This document shows, in pieces, positions 35,675-49,152 of a DNA stretch of 64,000 nucleotides. The notes below the pieces were generated by a model that worked only from the letters and a program-made list of their open reading frames with translations, searched no databases and was not told the DNA's origin. The DNA is from Cryptosporangium arvum DSM 44712 (lineage in GTDB: Bacteria > Actinomycetota > Actinomycetes > Mycobacteriales > Cryptosporangiaceae), in contig NZ_KK073874.1 of NCBI RefSeq assembly GCF_000585375.1, forward strand, positions 7,537,913 through 7,601,912. The letters are read 5' to 3'. How positions within the stretch are numbered: position 1 is the stretch's first letter; each line of letters begins with the position of its first letter. Both the position numbers and the translations under genes were made by a program.

Positions 35675-36901
35675 TCAGAGCCCGCCGCGACGTCGCTTGT
35701 TGTAGAAGTCGAACGCCACCGCCGCCAGCAGCACCAGGCCCTTGATGAGCTGCTGCCAGTCGGTGCCGACACCCAGGATCGACATGCCGTTGTTCAGGAT
35801 GCCGATGATCAGACCACCGATGATCGCGCCGGGGATCGTGCCGATACCGCCGGTCACGGCCGCGCCGCCGATGAACACCGCGGAGATCGCGTCGAGCTCG
35901 AACCCGTTACCCGCGCTGGGGTTGGCCAGGTTGAGGCCGGCGGTGTAGACGAGGCCGGCCAGCGCCGAGATCACGCCCATGTTCACGAACAACCAGAACG
36001 TCACCGACTTGGCCTTGACGCCGGACAGCTGGGCGGCGGACAGGTTGCCGCCGATCGCGTAGATGTGCCGTCCGAACACCGACCGGCTCATGACCGCGGT
36101 GTACCCGACGACGAGCAGGCCGAGGATCACCAGCACGATCGGCGTGCCGTCGTAGCTGGCCAGCTGCACGGTGACGAGCATGATCAGCGCGACCGCGAAC
36201 GCCTGCTTGGCGACGAACCACCAGAGCGGCTCGCTCTCGAGGTCGTACTTGCGCCGCTCGCGCCGCTGCCGGAACGCCGACGCCACCAGCGCCAGCGACG
36301 CCAGCACGCCGAGGATCATCGTCAGTGGTTCGTACCCGGACGACCCGAACGTCGGCAGGAAGCCCGAGCCGAGGTCACGGAACCCGTCGGGGAACGGCGC
36401 GATCTGCTTGTTGTCCAGCACGATCTGGGCCGCGCCGCGGAACGCCAGCATGCCGCCGAGCGTCACGATGAACGCCGGGATGCCGAAGTACGCGACCCAG
36501 TAGCCCTGCCAGGCGCCGACCAGTCCGCCCACCACCAGGCAGAGCACCACGGCGAGCGGCCAGGGCAGGTCCCACTTCGTGATCATGACGCCGGCCACGG
36601 CGCCGATGAACGCCACGATCGACCCGACCGACAGGTCGATGTGCCCGGCGATGATCACCATCACCATGCCGACGGCCAGGATCAGGATGTAGCTGTTCTG
36701 GATGATCAGGTTCGAGATGTTGATCGGCTTCAACGTGATGCCGTCGGTCGTGATCTGGAAGAACACGACGATGGCGATCAACGCGATGAACAGGCCGACC
36801 TGGCTGAGCTGCCCGGTCAGGTAGCTCAGCACCCCGGTCGTCGGGGGCTTGGCCGGCTTGGTGTCCACCGGCGGCTTGTCGAGTCCCGATGGCGCACTCA
36901 T
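35675..36901 (-). CDS. mmsB: multiple-monosaccharide ABC transporter permease (GguB/MmsB-like)
   Basis: A 408-residue inner-membrane translocator of the RbsC/XylH family. The N-terminal 25 residues are cytoplasmic, then about ten helices follow, with the family motif [30 protein letters not shown] near 70-95 and [27 protein letters not shown] near the end. The length is typical of the XylH/GguB group, which is longer than RbsC. Its ATG overlaps the ATPase stop (ATGA). It is last in the araB-araD-sugar transport operon. Confidence 0.93.
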
Positions 36902-38436
36902 GCGTCCACCTCCCGGTATTTGGTCATGTACTGCATGAGGCCCTCGGCGGTTGCTTCGCTCCGGGGTACGTCAGCAGTGATGTGACCCTCGGAAAGTGTG
37001 TAGATCCGATCGCAGATGCCGAGCAGTTCCGGCAGTTCGGACGAGATGACGATGATGCCTTTGCCCTCGTCGGCGAGTCGGTTGATGACGGTGTAGATCT
37101 CGTACTTCGCGCCGACGTCGATGCCCCGCGTGGGCTCGTCGAGGATCAGCACCTCGGGGTCGGCGAACATCCACTTCGACAGCACGACTTTCTGCTGGTT
37201 GCCGCCGGAGAGCTTGCCGGTCTTCGCGGTGACGTTCGGCGCTTTGATGTTCATGCTCTTGCGGAACCGCTCGGCGACCGTCGACTCCTCGGCGTCGTTC
37301 ACGAAGCCGAACCGCGCGAGCTTTCCGAGCGCGGAGCCCGAGATGTTGCGCTTGATGTCGTCGATCAGGTTCAAGCCGTAGCGCTTGCGGTCCTCGGTGA
37401 CGTACGCGATGCCGGCCTCGATGGCGCGCGGAACCGTGTTGGTCCGCACCTCGACCCCGCGCTTGTAGACCTTCCCGCTGATCCCGGTTCCGTAGCTGTG
37501 CCCGAAGACGCTCATCGCGAGCTCGGTGCGCCCGGCGCCCATCAGCCCGGCGATGCCGACGATCTCGCCCGCACGCACGTTCAGGGTGGCGCCGTCGACG
37601 ACCTTGCGTGACCGGTCGATCGGGTGGTGGACGGTCCAGTCCTCGATGCGGAGCAGTTCCTCACCCGGGTTCGACTCGTGGTCGGGGAACCGGCTCTCCA
37701 GGCTGCGCCCGACCATGCCGCGGATGATCCGCTCCTCGGTGACCTCACCGGAGTGCATTTCGAGCGTCTCGATCGACTTGCCGTCACGGATGATCGTGAC
37801 GCGGTCGGCGATCGCCTCGATCTCGTTCAGCTTGTGGCTGATGATGATCGACGTGATGCCCTGCTCACGCAGCTGGCTGATCAGACCCAGCAGGTGCGCG
37901 GAGTCGTCGTCGTTCAGCGCCGCGGTGGGCTCGTCGAGGATCAGCAGCTTCACCTCTTTGGAGAGCGCCTTGGCGATCTCGACGAGCTGCTGCTTGCCCA
38001 CCCCGATGTCGGTGACCTTGGTGATCGGGTTGTCGCGCAGCCCGACCCGCTTCAACAGCTTCGCGGCCTCGAGGTTCGTCTTGTTCCAGTCGATCCAGCC
38101 GCGCTTGGCCTGCTCGTTGCCGAGGTAGATGTTCTCGGCGATCGACAGGTACGGGCTCAGCGCCAGCTCCTGGTGGATGATGACGATGCCGGAAGCCTCG
38201 GAGTCGTTTATCGACTTGAACTCGACCGGCTGGCCGTCGAATTCGATCGAGCCCTCGAACGTGCCGTGCGGGTAGACGCCGGAGAGCACCTTCATCAAAG
38301 TGGACTTCCCGGCTCCGTTCTCCCCGCAGATCGCGTGAACGGTGCCGCGCTCGACTTCGATCGAGACGTCTTGCAGGGCTTTGACGCCCGGGAACGTCTT
38401 CGTGATGTCGCGCATCGCGAGGATCGTGTCCTGCAT
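36898..38436 (-). CDS. mmsA: multiple-monosaccharide ABC transporter ATP-binding protein (GguA/MmsA-like)
   Basis: A 512-residue protein with two fused ABC domains, as in all sugar importers of the CUT2 class. Domain 1 has Walker [10 protein letters not shown] near residue 35 and [11 protein letters not shown]; domain 2 has the degenerate loop [25 protein letters not shown] and [18 protein letters not shown] start it at ATG 38436, preceded by GGGAG; the open frame extends 15 codons further without a ribosome site. It is coupled to the permease. Confidence 0.94.
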
Positions 38437-43337: not shown

Positions 43338-43472
43338 ATGGCGACCGGCGCGGCCCTGAAGAAAGATGTGAAGAAGACGGCGAAGACCGCCAAGAGCGAA
43401 GCCAAAGGAACTGGCAAAGCTGTGAAGCGCGACGCGAAGAAGGCGAAGCGCAAGGCGAAGAAGAAGGCCTGA
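43338..43472 (+). CDS. 44-residue lysine-rich basic protein
   Basis: A very short frame not long enough for most gene callers: ATG 43338 preceded by AGAGGTGG at good distance, ending at a TGA right before a strong terminator. Sixteen of 44 residues are Lys and two are Arg, mostly in KKxxK patterns with Ala/Thr (for example AVKRDAKKAKRKAKKKA). This resembles the lysine-rich tails of histone H1 and of actinobacterial HU/Lsr2-like proteins, so nucleic-acid binding is the likeliest role (inference). It is a single-gene unit. Confidence 0.72.
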   Translation: MATGAALKKDVKKTAKTAKSEAKGTGKAVKRDAKKAKRKAKKKA

Positions 43473-43523: not shown

Positions 43524-43672
43524 GTCCACAGTCACCCGTACGGCCGTTCTCCCTCCTCCACCTGGTCGGACTCGATCACCGAGTGTCCGGCGTTGCCCAC
43601 GCCGTGTCTGGTGGTCGTCGCCCAGCGGGCACGCTGCTCGGGGCGGGCAGGGGTCTGGGGCGTGGGGGCGCA

Positions 43673-44731
43673 GTGCGGTCGAATGATTCGTGGTGGACGT
43701 CGTTACCTCGCGGTCGCGTCGTGCATCTCAGCGATGTGGACGCGGAAGCACTGGCCATCGCGCTGGATCCGTTACCGCGCGACGCACCGGTGGTGCTGAC
43801 CTACCGTCCGCGGGCCACCGCCACCCAACCGGCCATCGTGGCCGAAGTCCTGGGCCTGCTCGAGGCGTCGGCGGTCGCGCTGTTCCCGGCGTGGCTCCCC
43901 GAGGCCACCGGCATCACCGAGCCCAGCGACGCGAACGTCGCCGCGGTCCGCGCGCTCGCGTCCCGTCTGGCCGGCCGGAGCCGCCACTTCGGACCGTTCC
44001 TCGCCGACCTCGCGGCCCGTGCACTGACCGGCGCCGGCCCCGGCGCGTCCTTCCAACCCGAGGTCCGCGCCGCCGGCCTCACCCGGGTGCTGCTGGCCGC
44101 GTACTCACGGGCCGACGTCGTCGTGGTCGTCGACCTCCCGGACGGCTTACCGGCCGCCCACGAGACCCCGCTGATCGCCGCGCTGGAATGGCTCGCCTTC
44201 CGGGGCGGGCTCGGCGGGGTGTGGCTGACCGGCGCCCCGCTCTCCGACGTCGACCGGGTGCAGTCCCAGCGTGTGGAGCTTCCCGCCGCGGTACCCACGG
44301 AGACCCGCCGCGACCCGGCTCCCACCGCCGACGAGGCCCTGGCGATCCCGTCCCTGGGCGGACGGCCGAACCCGAACAGCGCCGCGGAGCAGCTGCTCGA
44401 GAAGGTGCTGAGCAGCCGCGTGTGGGCCCACGGCCGCGCGTGGAACCAGCCGTTCTCGTTCGGCCCGCTGACGAACCAGATCCGGATCGACCTCCTCTGG
44501 GAGGCCGAGCACACGGCCGTGGAGGTGGACGGGCCGGAGCACCGGGGGCCCCTCCACTACGCCACGGACCGGACCCGCGACGTCCTCCTGCAGACGGCCG
44601 GTTACGCGGTACTGCGCTTCACCAACGACCAGGTACTGGGCGACGTCAACGCGGTCGCCCATCAGCTCGAACTGTTCCTGTCCACACGACGCGTCACGGG
44701 ACGCTCGGAAGGATCCAGCCATGTCGAATGA
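43673..44731 (+). CDS. PD-(D/E)XK nuclease domain protein (DUF559/Vsr-like)
   Basis: A 352-residue protein. Residues 1-225 are a domain I do not recognise, with hydrophobic strands (APVVLTYRP, VVVVVDLPDG, GGVWLTGAPL) suggesting an alpha/beta fold. Residues 230-345 are a Vsr/DUF559-type endonuclease: Glu239 (NSAAEQLLEKVL), Asp273 (QIRIDLLW), Glu284-x-Asp286 (AVEVDG) and His290, then RDVLLQTAGYAVLRFTNDQVL. All catalytic positions are intact. GTG 43673 is chosen; the frame extends further up but without better signals. The stop overlaps the next gene by 11 bases, starting a three-gene coupled operon. Confidence 0.8.
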   Translation: MRSNDSWWTSLPRGRVVHLSDVDAEALAIALDPLPRDAPVVLTYRPRATATQPAIVAEVLGLLEASAVALFPAWLPEATGITEPSDANVAAVRALASRLAGRSRHFGPFLADLAARALTGAGPGASFQPEVRAAGLTRVLLAAYSRADVVVVVDLPDGLPAAHETPLIAALEWLAFRGGLGGVWLTGAPLSDVDRVQSQRVELPAAVPTETRRDPAPTADEALAIPSLGGRPNPNSAAEQLLEKVLSSRVWAHGRAWNQPFSFGPLTNQIRIDLLWEAEHTAVEVDGPEHRGPLHYATDRTRDVLLQTAGYAVLRFTNDQVLGDVNAVAHQLELFLSTRRVTGRSEGSSHVE

Positions 44732-45371
44732 CGCCCTGAAGCCGGTCGAGCGGGCAGCGCTTCTGCTGCTCGTCGCCGTCGCGGAGCCTTCGGTCACCAA
44801 CCCTGATCTGACCGCCCGCTTCGGCGTGGCGATCACCGGCGACGGACGGCGTGGGCTCAACGATCGGAAGCTCGTCAAGACGGAGAAAGTCGGACGATCG
44901 TTGTCGCACGAGGTGCTCGACGACGGTTGGGCACGTGCGCGTGAGGAACTGCTCGGTGTGCTACCCAAGAGCCTGCTCGGGCAGGCCGCGACGGCGGCGA
45001 TCAACGCCCAGTTGCATCGTTATCTCGCTCGCAATGACCTCCGCCTGTTCGACATCTTCCAGGCCGGCGACGCGGAGGCCGACGTCGTGGAGGTCGAGCA
45101 CCCGGCCCCGACCGTCCTGGCGGATCGCATCCGGGCGGCCTACTGGAAGGTCACCAAGAAGCCGAACGGCTGGGTGCTCCTGTCGTCACTCCGCGAACAG
45201 CTCGCCGACATTTCCCGGGCCGAACTCGACGCCGCCTTGATCGCGCTGAACTCCGCCCCGGATGTCACCTTCTCCACCGAGGCGAACAAGAAGTCGCTCG
45301 TCGACCGGGGTGCGGCCGCAGTCGTCATCGGCAACCAGAAGAAGCACCTGATCGCGATCGAGGGCGCATGA
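44721..45371 (+). CDS. winged-helix-like small subunit of the nuclease-ATPase operon
   Basis: A 216-residue protein with no clear family. Residues 8-80 (LKPVERAALLLLVAVAEPSVTNPDLTARFGVAITGDGRRGLNDRKLVKTEKV) read as a winged helix, and residues 135-215 (WVLLSSLREQLADISRAELDAALIALNS) as a second helical-wing module. It starts inside the nuclease gene (11-base overlap) and its stop overlaps the ATPase ATG (ATGA). Coupling to both suggests a stoichiometric adaptor or DNA-recognition subunit (inference). Confidence 0.75.
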   Translation: MSNDALKPVERAALLLLVAVAEPSVTNPDLTARFGVAITGDGRRGLNDRKLVKTEKVGRSLSHEVLDDGWARAREELLGVLPKSLLGQAATAAINAQLHRYLARNDLRLFDIFQAGDAEADVVEVEHPAPTVLADRIRAAYWKVTKKPNGWVLLSSLREQLADISRAELDAALIALNSAPDVTFSTEANKKSLVDRGAAAVVIGNQKKHLIAIEGA

Positions 45372-48300
45372 GCGACATCGAACTCAGAGCACTCCGGTCC
45401 ATTCGGATCAACTTCGTTCCGATGCAGGACGACGTCTGGCATCCGAACCCGTTCCACGTGGACGGCATGCACCAGCGCGCGATCGACACCGTCCTCGACG
45501 GCTTGGACGAAGCCTTCGACAGCGAGGCGAGCAGCCCCATCGGCGTCGTCATCCAGGGGCAACGAGGTACCGGCAAAACCCATCTCGTCGGGTGGCTCCG
45601 GGACCAGATCCAGGACCGCGACGGCTTCTTCTTCCTGCTCAGTCTCGTCGACCCCGCGGCATTCTGGCCGAGCACGGTGGTGTCGATACTCGACGGGCTC
45701 ACCCGGAAAGTGAAGCACCGGATGCCCCAGCGGCGGGCGTTGCTGACCCGCCTCGCGAACGACGGCGAGCTGGCTCCCGAACTGCTCCCCCAGGTCGTCG
45801 GTGACGAGCCGCTCACCCCGCAGGCACTGACGGCATTCGTTCACGCCCTGCGCAACGTCGACGACCAGATCGCCCGCGAGTGCCAGGACACGGCTCGTGC
45901 GCTCGTCCTGTACGGCTCCGCGGACATGGACGTCCAGGACATCGGCCAGAGTTTCCTGCATTCACACGCGGACGAGACCGGACAGGGCGCAGCGTGGGGC
46001 CTCGGAAGGCACGTCAAGAGCGCACCGGTCATCGTCCGTGATCTGTTCCGCCTGATCGCGTTGGTGGGTCCGAGCGTGATCGCTGTCGATCAGATCGACT
46101 CGATCATCACCGCCGCCACGACTGGTGCGGCGGACAGCGCGGTGAGCGACGAGGCGGTTCGCAACGTCGCGTTGGACCAGATCGCCGACGGGCTGATGAC
46201 CCTCCGGGAGAACACGCGGCGAACGCTCACCGTGCTGACTTGCCTCCCCCCGACCTGGACGCTCATCACCGAAGAGGCCGTCGACACCGTGCAGGACCGA
46301 TTCCGGGAAACCTCGCACCTGCAGACGATCCCGACCGAGGACTTCGCCCGGGCTCTGATCGGGAAACGATTCGAGCGGTACTACGGCCGTGTCGGATTCG
46401 AACCGCCCTACCCGACGTGGCCGATCGCGCCGTCCGCATTCCGGGGAGTCGGCCAGTTTACGCCACGTGAGCTGCTGAAACGTGTCGACAAGCATGTCCG
46501 GGCGTGCGTCGACCGCGGAGAGGCCGTGCTGTTGACCTCGCTCGCTGAGACGATCGGCGGTCCGGGGCACCGACCGCCGCCGGTGGACGTCATGGCCGCG
46601 CTGGACACCCGATTCGAGCAACTGATCGCTTCGGCCAACGTGTCGCACGTGCTGGCGCACTCCACCGAGGACGCTGTCCTGCCCCGGCTGCTCAATGCCG
46701 GGCTGGAAGCGTGGATCCTGGAGAAGGAAGACACCGAGAAGCTGTTCTCGTACGACCCCCTGCCCGGCCTGAAGCCGCCGCTGCACGCCCGACTGCGGAT
46801 GACTCTCGACGAGAAGACCGAGGACGAGGCGCACTGGGCTTTCCGCGCGATCGGCGCCGAGCATCCCAACGCGAGCCGGCCGCGGATCCAAATGGCCTGC
46901 ATGATGTCGGGGCTCTCCCAGAAGATGCCGAAGCGACGCCTCTTCCTGCTCCGGAACGCGGAGTGGAAAGCGAAGCCGGGCACGAAGTTCTGGACGGCGT
47001 TGAACGAGTTCGAGAGCGCCGGGGGCCGCACGCTGGGGGTTTCGCAGGCTGATCTCAAGGTGCTCTCCGCCTTGAAGGTGTTGCTGGAGGAGAGCCCGAA
47101 CCACCTCGAGGCGTGGCTCGAAGATCGCCGCCCGAGTGAACGGGTCGCGTTCCTCCGTGAGGCGCTGTCCGACCTCTCGACGGCCGGCGAACGGACCGTC
47201 AGCCCGCCACCGGAGCCCGGCGAAGCGCAGGAGGAGCTTCCGGACGTTCCGACGCTCGTCGTGGGGCGGGCGATCGACGGCGGTGAGGCGGTGACCGTCG
47301 AGCTGGAAGCCCTGCGGAAGCACACCGCGATCTTCGCCGGTTCGGGGTCGGGGAAGACCGTGCTGATCCGGCGGCTGGTCGAGGAGTGTGCGCTGCGCGG
47401 GGTCTCGTCGATCGTGCTCGACCCCAACAACGACCTCGCGCGGCTCGGTGACGCCTGGCCCGAGCCGCCGGCGGGGTGGGGTGCGCACGATGCGGCCGCG
47501 GCCGCCGACTACCTGGGCGGCACCGACGTCGTCGTGTGGACACCGCGCCGGCAGGCCGGGCGGGCGCTGAGCTTCCAGGCCCTGCCGGACTTCGCGAGCG
47601 TCCGCGACGACCCCGACGAGTTCGACGCCGCGATCGACGCCGCCGTGGCGACGCTGGCCCCGAGGGCGCGGGCGGACGGCGGTACCGCACGGTCGGTGCG
47701 CTCGCGCGCGGTGCTGACCGAGGCCCTTCGGTTCTTCGCGCGCAGCGGGTTCTCGACGCTGCGCGAGTTCATCGCCGTGCTGGCGGCGTTCCCGGAGGAC
47801 GCGAGCCGGCTGGAGAACGCCGACCGGATCGCCGCCGAACTCGCCCAGGACCTCAACGCCGCCGTCGTCAACGATCCGTTGTTCGGGGGTGCCGGCACTC
47901 TGGTCGACCCCGGTGAGCTGCTCACCCCAGCGCCGGGCAAGCGGGCCCGGGTGTCGGTGATCAGCCTGGTCGGGCTGCCCTCCGACGAGCAGCGGCAGAG
48001 CTTCGTCAACCAGCTGCAGATGGCGTTGTTCGCCTGGGTGAAGAAGAACCCGGCCGGCGACCGCCCGCTGGGTGGCCTGTTCGTGATGGACGAGGCCCAG
48101 ACGCTGGCTCCGTCCGGGGCGATGACCGCGTGTACGCAGAGCACGCTGGCGCTGGCGTCGCAGGCGCGCAAGTACGGGCTCGGGCTCGTCTTCGCCACCC
48201 AGGCCCCGAAAGGGCTGCACAACCGGATTCCCGGCAACGCGGCGACGCAGTTCTTCGGCCTGCTCAACGCGCCGGTACAGATCAGCGCGGCGCAGGAGAT

Positions 48301-48478
48301 GGCCAAGGCCAAGGGCGGGAACGTCCCGGACGTGGGGCGCATGGGCACCGGCGAGTTCTACGCGGCCCCCGAGGGTTCGCGGTTCATCAAGGTGAAGACG
48401 CCGCTGTGTCTGAGCCATCACCCGAAGAGTCCGCTGACCACCGAACAGGTCGTGGAGCGGGCACGCACCGGAGCGTGA
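45368..48478 (+). CDS. dual ATPase: AAA-type domain fused to HerA/FtsK-like motor
   Basis: A 1036-residue protein with two complete nucleotide-binding engines. The N-terminal AAA/STAND-like module has Walker A GQRGTGKT at 64-71 and Walker B SVIAVDQID around 237-243, then a helical lid region to about 600. The C-terminal HerA/VirB4-like motor has Walker A GSGSGKT at 658-664, VLDPNNDL, Walker B FVMDEAQ (Asp908-Glu909) and VFATQAPKGLHNRIPGNAATQFFG, typical of DUF87/HerA translocases. HerA normally drives a nuclease (NurA); here the nuclease is the first gene of the operon. I cannot match the fusion to a named system. Confidence 0.85.
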   Translation: MSDIELRALRSIRINFVPMQDDVWHPNPFHVDGMHQRAIDTVLDGLDEAFDSEASSPIGVVIQGQRGTGKTHLVGWLRDQIQDRDGFFFLLSLVDPAAFWPSTVVSILDGLTRKVKHRMPQRRALLTRLANDGELAPELLPQVVGDEPLTPQALTAFVHALRNVDDQIARECQDTARALVLYGSADMDVQDIGQSFLHSHADETGQGAAWGLGRHVKSAPVIVRDLFRLIALVGPSVIAVDQIDSIITAATTGAADSAVSDEAVRNVALDQIADGLMTLRENTRRTLTVLTCLPPTWTLITEEAVDTVQDRFRETSHLQTIPTEDFARALIGKRFERYYGRVGFEPPYPTWPIAPSAFRGVGQFTPRELLKRVDKHVRACVDRGEAVLLTSLAETIGGPGHRPPPVDVMAALDTRFEQLIASANVSHVLAHSTEDAVLPRLLNAGLEAWILEKEDTEKLFSYDPLPGLKPPLHARLRMTLDEKTEDEAHWAFRAIGAEHPNASRPRIQMACMMSGLSQKMPKRRLFLLRNAEWKAKPGTKFWTALNEFESAGGRTLGVSQADLKVLSALKVLLEESPNHLEAWLEDRRPSERVAFLREALSDLSTAGERTVSPPPEPGEAQEELPDVPTLVVGRAIDGGEAVTVELEALRKHTAIFAGSGSGKTVLIRRLVEECALRGVSSIVLDPNNDLARLGDAWPEPPAGWGAHDAAAAADYLGGTDVVVWTPRRQAGRALSFQALPDFASVRDDPDEFDAAIDAAVATLAPRARADGGTARSVRSRAVLTEALRFFARSGFSTLREFIAVLAAFPEDASRLENADRIAAELAQDLNAAVVNDPLFGGAGTLVDPGELLTPAPGKRARVSVISLVGLPSDEQRQSFVNQLQMALFAWVKKNPAGDRPLGGLFVMDEAQTLAPSGAMTACTQSTLALASQARKYGLGLVFATQAPKGLHNRIPGNAATQFFGLLNAPVQISAAQEMAKAKGGNVPDVGRMGTGEFYAAPEGSRFIKVKTPLCLSHHPKSPLTTEQVVERARTGA

Positions 48479-48660: not shown

Positions 48661-49152
48661 ATGAGCGAGTACGAGACCAACGTCGACGTCGACGGCGACG
48701 GCACCTACGACGACGTCACCTTCTCGGAGAACGCCGACGGCAGCGTCACCATCACCGCCGACCAGAACAACGACGGCACCGTGGACTTCGTCGCCCACGA
48801 CTACAACGCCGACGGCATCGTCGACGACGCCATCTACGACGACGACCACGACGGCGACGCCGACACCTACTGGAAAGACACCACCGGCGACGGCATCCTC
48901 GACCGCGCCGCCGGCGACACCAACGACGACGACGTCGTCGACTGGAACGGCGTCGACGCCAACCAGGACGGCCACATCGACCACGCCACCGCCGACACCA
49001 ACTACGACGGCAAAGCCGACACCTACGTCGCCGACGACAACTACAACGGCAACGCCGAATACGCCGCCGTCGACACCGACGGAGACGGCTACACCGACCG
49101 CACCACCGACCCCACCCAGGCCGGCAACCAGACCCAGGTCAACTGGAGCTAA
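48661..49152 (+). CDS. acidic protein built of 13-residue calcium-loop repeats
   Basis: A 163-residue, strongly acidic protein. From residue 6 to the end it is about eleven units of 13 residues with consensus xxDxNxDGxxDxx (for example TADQNNDGTVDFV, AHDYNADGIVDDA, GVDANQDGHIDHA), equal to the first nine positions of an EF-hand loop but without helices, similar to thrombospondin type-3 or dockerin loops. One unit is 12 residues. There is no signal peptide or membrane segment. AGGAG precedes the ATG. Ca2+ binding is inferred. It stands 182 bp after the ATPase gene and may be a separate unit. Confidence 0.85.
   Translation: MSEYETNVDVDGDGTYDDVTFSENADGSVTITADQNNDGTVDFVAHDYNADGIVDDAIYDDDHDGDADTYWKDTTGDGILDRAAGDTNDDDVVDWNGVDANQDGHIDHATADTNYDGKADTYVADDNYNGNAEYAAVDTDGDGYTDRTTDPTQAGNQTQVNWS

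Follow-up and report, generated by a model that had tools for sequence, protein, structure and literature searches.

The stretch of DNA analysed here (the window, 64,000 nucleotides) is part of the 9.2-Mb single-contig genome of Cryptosporangium arvum DSM 44712, and includes three consecutive genes encoding a nuclease, a small winged-helix-like protein (the adaptor), and a 1036-residue ATPase (Table 1). A sequence-only reading had described these genes as coupled by an 11-base and a 4-base overlap, and the open reading frames (ORFs) agree: the nuclease and adaptor genes share positions 44721-44731, and the adaptor and ATPase genes share an ATGA at 45368-45371. The nuclease gene has candidate GTG starts at 43583, 43673, and 43736, and its true start is uncertain. 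Since the nuclease family profile, matched over positions 2-343 of 345, extends upstream of 43736, the start at 43673 is favored; this was also the choice of the earlier reading, and appears plausible.

Table 1. Genes and sequence features of the nuclease-adaptor-ATPase locus, in window coordinates
Feature	Position	Strand	Remark
Effector nuclease gene	43673..44731	+	~352 aa with start at 43673
Nuclease active-site stretch D252...E263-x-D265 (numbered from 43736)	44489..44530	+	Invariant columns, 64/64 homologues
Winged-helix-like adaptor gene	44721..45371	+	216 aa
Core ATPase gene	45368..48478	+	1036 aa
AAA+ domain and lid	45455..46552	+	AAA_22 match
AAA+ Walker A GxxGxGKT	45557-45580	+	GKT in 91/91 homologues
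AAA+ Walker B ending D-Q-I-D, Gln replacing Glu	46076-46099	+	D-Q in 91/91 homologues
Restriction endonuclease-like domain (residues 405-557), then helix-turn-helix-like helices (560-604)	46580..47179	+	Predicted model
HerA/FtsK motor, Walker A GSGSGKT	47249..48466	+	DUF87 match
HerA Walker B DE	48077-48094	+	Alignment of 91 homologues

A conserved pair with alternative partners

Comparison across 132 loci revealed that the adaptor and the ATPase form the true unit, and that this pair has at least six alternative partners, the nuclease among them. The architecture, its conservation, the exclusivity of partners, and their repeated exchange were all computed. The loci comprise a first set of 92, drawn from genomes of the genus, a contig scan, plasmid records, and the window itself, and a second set of 40 chosen for lacking the nuclease. 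Components were counted by profile search on six-frame translations, because several nucleases and one TIR gene had escaped the gene caller. Contig-scan loci were the best 80 of at least 476 confirmed ATPase relatives, and given this choice and the 40 nuclease-less picks, partner proportions do not represent a census.

The adaptor gene accompanied the ATPase at all 132 loci, which excludes a chance origin for the observation. The trio had been taken as the conserved unit; it does recur far beyond a single genome, but the nuclease is exchangeable and was found at 64/132 loci. Elsewhere its place is taken by a TIR protein with a KGGVGR ATPase (25/132 loci, TIR beside KGGVGR at 25/25), a trypsin-like WD40 protein (13/132, accompanied by a Trypco1 gene at 10 of 12 first-set loci), an AIPR/AbiU protein (5/132), a DUF4365 protein (5/132, with a PDC-M02B-like gene alongside at 4 of the 5), or a helix-turn-helix (HTH)-NTPase designated c61 (5/132). 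The labels KGGVGR, trypsin-like domain, and HTH of c61 reflect a reading of the sequences by eye, while Pfam returned AAA_31 and CATASP for the KGGVGR protein, WD40 as one of the 25 families displayed for the trypsin-like protein, and only a weak AAA_16 match for c61 (E = 0.03). Catalytic residues of the trypsin-like domain are mostly, not always, kept (His 10/12, Asp 12/12, Ser 10/12), so that some of these partners may be inactive. Separately, we observed an intact pair and no recognized partner at locus L050, from the same order as the window (L and G numbers are our labels for loci and genomes), and at the mycobacterial loci L128, L130, L131, L133, L138, and L140. A mycobacterial gene, c18, which adjoins loci lacking the nuclease, was rejected as a partner, being by sequence an oxidoreductase-like gene of the chromosomal context that is also found near nuclease locus L143.

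These partners are strictly exclusive. No locus carried two partner classes, compared to 25.7 expected under independent placement (at least 16 in every one of 2000 draws), and the first set alone, with the contig-truncated locus L122 removed, likewise gave 0/91 (13.5 expected; at least 6 in each of 5000 draws). Partners follow ATPase lineages but have been exchanged repeatedly: a tree of 130 ATPases (with L122 and one duplicate, L200 = L090, removed) implies at least 16 partner changes, where the minimum possible is 6 and shuffled labels give 61.1, this being a quick tree in which some long branches meet. An earlier tree of 91 ATPases implied 9 changes. The 13 trypsin-type rows make up one side of a branch of the ATPase tree with a support of 100.

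Gene spacing is typically tight. The gap between adaptor and ATPase genes was -4 or -1 bp in 72 of 86 gene-called first-set loci and -4 bp in 38/40 second-set loci, and that between nuclease and adaptor genes ranged from -38 to 18 bp in 49/54 loci. Corresponding ranges were -37 to 87 bp for KGGVGR-adaptor, -16 to 15 bp for TIR-KGGVGR, and -4 to 27 bp for ATPase-AbiU. The trypsin-type genes are transcribed divergently from the pair, and beyond them no gene was common to more than 2 of the 12 first-set loci, judged by eye over a few genes on each side.

Among 397 genomes sampled from the order to which the window belongs, 36 gave a nuclease match (E ≤ 1e-40), a single one per genome; two of these matches are partial (the one in G488, and a decayed copy in G671). 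In 34 of the 36 genomes, the ATPase is found no more than 1.4 kb from the nuclease; in the remaining two, the contig ends inside the adjoining adaptor-ATPase pair (G432) or just after the adjoining adaptor gene (G476). Counting these two, the nuclease adjoins the pair in 36/36 genomes. In the decayed second copy in G671 (G671:C1:3991393-3995489), an internal stop interrupts the nuclease match, and the ATPase matches are fragmented. Eighteen genomes with a nuclease-less locus were checked (of 28 such first-set loci), and 17 had no complete nuclease elsewhere; the 18th encodes one in a second, nuclease-type locus (L108). All other matches in these genomes cover the DUF559 end only.

Domain organization of the three proteins

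An AAA-type and a HerA-type ATPase had been read in the single 1036-residue protein, and both were recovered by Pfam, with AAA_22/AAA_16 matches at about residues 43-165 (AAA_22 E = 1.6e-7) and a DUF87 (HerA) match at residues 631-882 (E = 3.9e-12). In the HerA part, the GKT and DE motifs, Arg934, and the sensor Gln945 were each found in 91/91 homologues. An active AAA+ Walker B normally carries a Glu, which is replaced by Gln here in all 91, so the AAA+ domain may act as an ATP-binding switch instead of a second motor. The predicted structure of the ATPase has a whole-model predicted local distance difference test (pLDDT) score of only 69, with blocks at 71-93 for residues 411-600. Residues 405-604 of this model follow the alpha-beta-beta-beta-alpha-beta order of the restriction endonuclease (REase) fold and then form HTH-like helices, and no (D/E)xK was seen in the inspected stretches of the 91 aligned homologues. 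Model topology therefore suggests an REase-like domain without a recognizable active site. When the model was compared to solved structures with Foldseek, the best match was HerA-NurA 9x1m (E = 4.8e-6), followed by SIR2-HerA, with TrwB 1e9r also among the leading matches.

The 216-aa adaptor had no family match above cut-offs in PADLOC, Pfam, or NCBIfam. Its weak profile matches include MarR, ZitR, and AspA (E 0.03-0.2), interspersed with calmodulin matches that look like chance; calmodulin relatives dominated the search of solved-structure sequences, and were judged to be chance and set aside. Three Pfam winged-helix families were matched by a few of 32 adaptor family members. These weak signals are consistent with a winged-helix-like protein, probably a DNA-binding helper, and inspection of its sequence suggests that the C-terminal half perhaps includes a second winged helix-turn-helix (wHTH) unit.

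The reading of the first gene as an intact PD-(D/E)XK nuclease was upheld by a DUF559 domain in its C-terminal part (Pfam E = 2.7e-10) and by a set of residues (S, E, D, E-x-D, D, R, D, and R) unchanged in 64/64 homologues. In its predicted structure (pLDDT 87.7), the C-terminal part resembles I-Bth0305I 3r3p (TMt 0.70) and NGO0050 3hrl (TMt 0.77), at Foldseek E of only 0.06-0.15, and the N-terminal ~200 aa of the model had no convincing match among solved folds. Overall, the protein looks like a DUF559, PD-(D/E)XK-like enzyme with an intact active site. No modification enzyme was found among the three proteins (PADLOC, Pfam, and NCBIfam) or 8 flanking genes (Pfam).

Rates of change differ across these components. 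Median pairwise identity is 66.8% for HerA, 45.6% for AAA+, 44.7% for the REase-like part, 36.7% for the adaptor, and 43.6% for the nuclease, the adaptor and nuclease values each coming from a subset of loci of its own. HerA is thus slow-evolving, and the other components faster, as would be expected if these face a changing opponent.

Comparison with described HerA systems

The sequence-only reading had presented the trio as an undescribed system. This was too strong, because PMC10853773 predicted in 2024, as far as the accessible part of that paper goes, a class of "HerA/FtsK capture systems" whose domain list is largely the same: an Orc/CDC6 AAA+, an inactive and an active REase, a HerA/FtsK motor, and a wHTH protein. 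Systems of this kind are already known as a prediction, and the window system is a further variant. In the same accessible text, the inactive REase is placed between the AAA+ and the wHTH, and a subset of systems has a distinct, rapidly evolving protein made of 2-4 wHTH domains. The window locus likewise combines an AAA+ domain, a putative REase-like domain between AAA+ and HTH-like helices, a putative active REase (DUF559), a separate fast-evolving putative wHTH protein, and a HerA motor with sensor Gln (Q945) and Arg finger (R934). It fits this domain list except for the Orc/CDC6 kinship, the inactive-REase and wHTH assignments being putative: matches to AAA_22/AAA_16 are clear, whereas those to Orc/CDC6 are weak. 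The family PF24389, tried as a bridge to Orc/CDC6, was abandoned, with matches in 2/246 genomes and no link from one such protein.

Unlike the capture systems as described in that part of the paper, the AAA+, REase-like, and HerA domains here form one polypeptide, and at other loci TIR/KGGVGR, trypsin-like WD40 with Trypco1, AbiU, or DUF4365 replaces the DUF559 partner. The words DUF559, trypsin, and actinobacter are absent from the main text of PMC10853773 in the form available. Partner exchange around a fixed, fused core and the invariant Walker-B Gln (91/91) appear to be unreported in the literature searched.

Other HerA systems share fewer of these features. As in SIR2-HerA (Nezha) and DUF4297-HerA, among the leading fold matches, a HerA motor is associated with a separate effector. 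Neither is known to include an AAA+ or REase-like fusion or a winged-helix gene. The HerA_antiphage models of NCBIfam gave only 13.9 of 800 and 10.1 of 850 bits against the window ATPase, and the partner is a DUF559 protein, neither SIR2 nor NurA, in contrast to SIR2-HerA and NurA-HerA. Mutually exclusive sirtuin and endonuclease partners of HerA-like ATPases are described in the accessible part of PMC9503650. DndFGH and DptFGH, as outlined in the available text of PMC10853773, also combine a HerA/FtsK motor, a wHTH subunit, and an REase; the same three elements, the wHTH one putative, are found here in different fusions, and no Dnd or Dpt model was among the PADLOC or NCBIfam matches of the three proteins at E up to 1. 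Similarly, BREX-Related Capture systems include a HerA/FtsK, an AAA+, a wHTH-type protein, and a nuclease in the portion available of PMC12839542, but PglZ, DUF6079, and DUF4007 are not among the matches listed for the three proteins.

The earlier failure to match the trio to a named system was reproduced in PADLOC and NCBIfam. The best PADLOC match of the ATPase is mad8 of MADS, at 66.6 bits and over the HerA part only (630-961). MADS comprises further mad genes, and no other mad model in PADLOC matched any of the three proteins. Moreover, an ordinary-looking sugar ABC-transporter ATPase of the window (36898-38436) matches both mad3 (141 bits) and mad8 (68.3 bits); the mad8 match is thus unspecific, these two models alone cannot be read as MADS, and this identity was dropped.

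Distribution, defense association, and possible role

ATPase relatives (E ≤ 1e-60) are patchily distributed in the order, being found in 93 of the 397 genomes. The 132 loci are mostly from Actinomycetota, a large Methylobacterium plasmid being the sole non-actinobacterial case seen. This plasmid, which also encodes a MOBP relaxase, carries a recognizable trio (L148, 10246-15207) with a nuclease 28% and an ATPase 37% identical to those of the window, so the arrangement is either old or transferred between phyla. No relative was found in 50,697 phage records, none was confirmed among 168 candidate stretches of viral contigs, and only 3 of 72,556 plasmid records had one. Besides the Methylobacterium plasmid, these are a record of 11.9 Mb and one from Tsukamurella that includes the main ribosomal-protein cluster, both therefore probably chromosomal.

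A defense role is supported by association, short of proof. Several alternative partners (TIR, AIPR/AbiU, and the PADLOC candidates PDC-M02A/B), and bSEFIR close by, belong to families with links to defense. TIR, AIPR, and Trypco1 are among the Pfam matches of the partners, and Trypco1 is named in a survey of conflict systems (PMC7159879, accessible part). In PADLOC, three AIPR partners score as AbiU (E 1e-75 to 1e-115), and one DUF4365 pair as PDC-M02A (2e-61) and PDC-M02B (8e-127); the trypsin-like protein had a repeat-type match only (HEAT-ARM_XIII), and c61 nothing specific. Separately, many TIR-type loci have a SEFIR gene nearby, often divergent (the profile search placed one at 15 loci: L187-L193, L196, L199, L202, L204, L208, L209, L213, and L218), including L199, which lacks the TIR/KGGVGR pair; one such gene near a locus matches bSEFIR in PADLOC (1e-30). 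AbiU, bSEFIR, and HerA are all absent from the available text of an actinobacterial defense survey (PMC10482375).

We consider it probable (about 0.7) that the trio represents a chromosomal immune system against invading DNA, built from a fixed pair and one exchangeable partner slot. The adaptor, the AAA+ domain, and the REase-like domain would form a DNA-bound sensor, with the AAA+ domain probably ATP-locked through its natural Walker-B Gln. Once invading DNA is engaged, we infer that the HerA domains would form a ring and pump duplex DNA, and that the nuclease, docked through its private N-terminal domain, would cut the captured DNA. The output would differ in other lineages: there, activation of this core would set off a TIR protein, AbiU, or a protease-like protein, giving a suicide-type response. 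The motor-driven DNA cleavage proposed from the sequence alone thus stands in part: the nuclease and HerA motor do look intact, but cleavage is not the whole story, because the same core pairs with TIR and protease-like partners. A broader version, in which the pair is a general invader-sensing platform of Actinomycetota with at least six unrelated weapons plugged in singly, and the AAA+ domain is an ATP-locked switch firing HerA or the partner, seems to us somewhat better than an even bet.

Several observations weigh against an immune role or against kinship with the capture systems. Location in a defense island, suggested as a check of the original idea, was not borne out for the window locus: none of the 10 flanking genes scanned had a specific PADLOC match, the ABC-transporter ATPase with its mad3 and mad8 matches being the only one to score, so no island is visible. 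The locus is found in 4/4 genomes of the genus at the same place, adjoining a sugar-use (ara-like) operon, and is therefore more like a vertically kept gene set. No partner was recognized at 15/132 loci (one of these, L122, cut by a contig end), and the literature searched holds no record of a phage or plasmid experiment. As for Orc/CDC6, Cdc6p 1fnn ranks only 36th in the fold search of the ATPase (E = 0.017), the ORC-CDC6-like PF24389 matches the P-loop only (E = 0.049), and comparison of the ATPase family profile with one PF24389 protein gave a probability of 4%.

The conserved position in the genus and the lack of defense genes among the neighbors scanned could also reflect a housekeeping machine for DNA-end processing or repair, a bacterial counterpart of archaeal HerA-NurA, which similarly joins a HerA motor to a nuclease and provides the closest solved structure to the ATPase model. 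We regard this as unlikely: distribution in the order is patchy, the TIR, protease-like, and AbiU replacements have no evident repair role, and the nuclease is a DUF559 protein, with NurA not matched in the Pfam scan. HerA-NurA further differs from this system, which has an additional AAA+ domain and adaptor and swaps its partners. A similarly low likelihood applies to the possibility that the pair makes up a system by itself, with the nuclease, TIR, AbiU, and remaining genes as independent neighbors that happen to share its place. This would suit the 14 loci (truncated one excluded) where the pair stands without a recognized partner, and the status of AbiU, bSEFIR, and PDC-M02 as systems or candidates of their own in PADLOC, yet it runs against the strict exclusivity of partners, the frequent start-stop overlaps, the restriction of the nuclease with its N-terminal domain to a place beside the pair in the 36 genomes, and the lack of a complete nuclease copy outside such a locus in the nuclease-less-locus genomes checked. 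That the genes serve a mobile element in DNA transfer or maintenance, as a coupling-protein- or partition-like module whose nuclease takes part in transfer, is very improbable despite the resemblance to TrwB and the trio beside a MOBP relaxase, given the near absence of the family from plasmid records and its absence from the phage and viral sequences searched.

Other features were seen around these loci. Several Mycobacteriales loci lie inside the ribosomal-protein cluster, beside rplN (L054 6503-11369, L147 10293-15261, and L223 7366-11306), with rpsQ on the far side of the genes in L054 and L147, and L224 also borders a ribosomal gene; in several Mycobacteriales, this cluster is apparently a recurrent insertion place. 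In the window, a 44-codon ORF (43338-43472) between a LacI-type gene and the nuclease gene encodes a lysine/alanine-rich, histone-tail-like product, and an ORF in a second genome of the genus (L049 5346-5516) clearly corresponds to it. Directly 3' of the ATPase gene, an aspartate-rich protein with DxDGDG-like repeats (48661-49152) had no match in the Pfam or PADLOC scan.

The family described here is widespread and not listed as a system in PADLOC. Its invariant Walker-B Gln offers a direct mutational test of the proposed switch. Because an identical kind of core stands with a DNA cutter in some lineages and with a TIR or protease-like protein in others, the family also offers a clean comparative test of whether immune HerA motors feed DNA to nucleases, or sense invaders and fire any effector. 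If the broader, platform-like reading holds, AbiU, PDC-M02, and TIR/KGGVGR proteins, which are listed or known on their own, would in these genomes be outputs of a sensor missed by defense catalogs.

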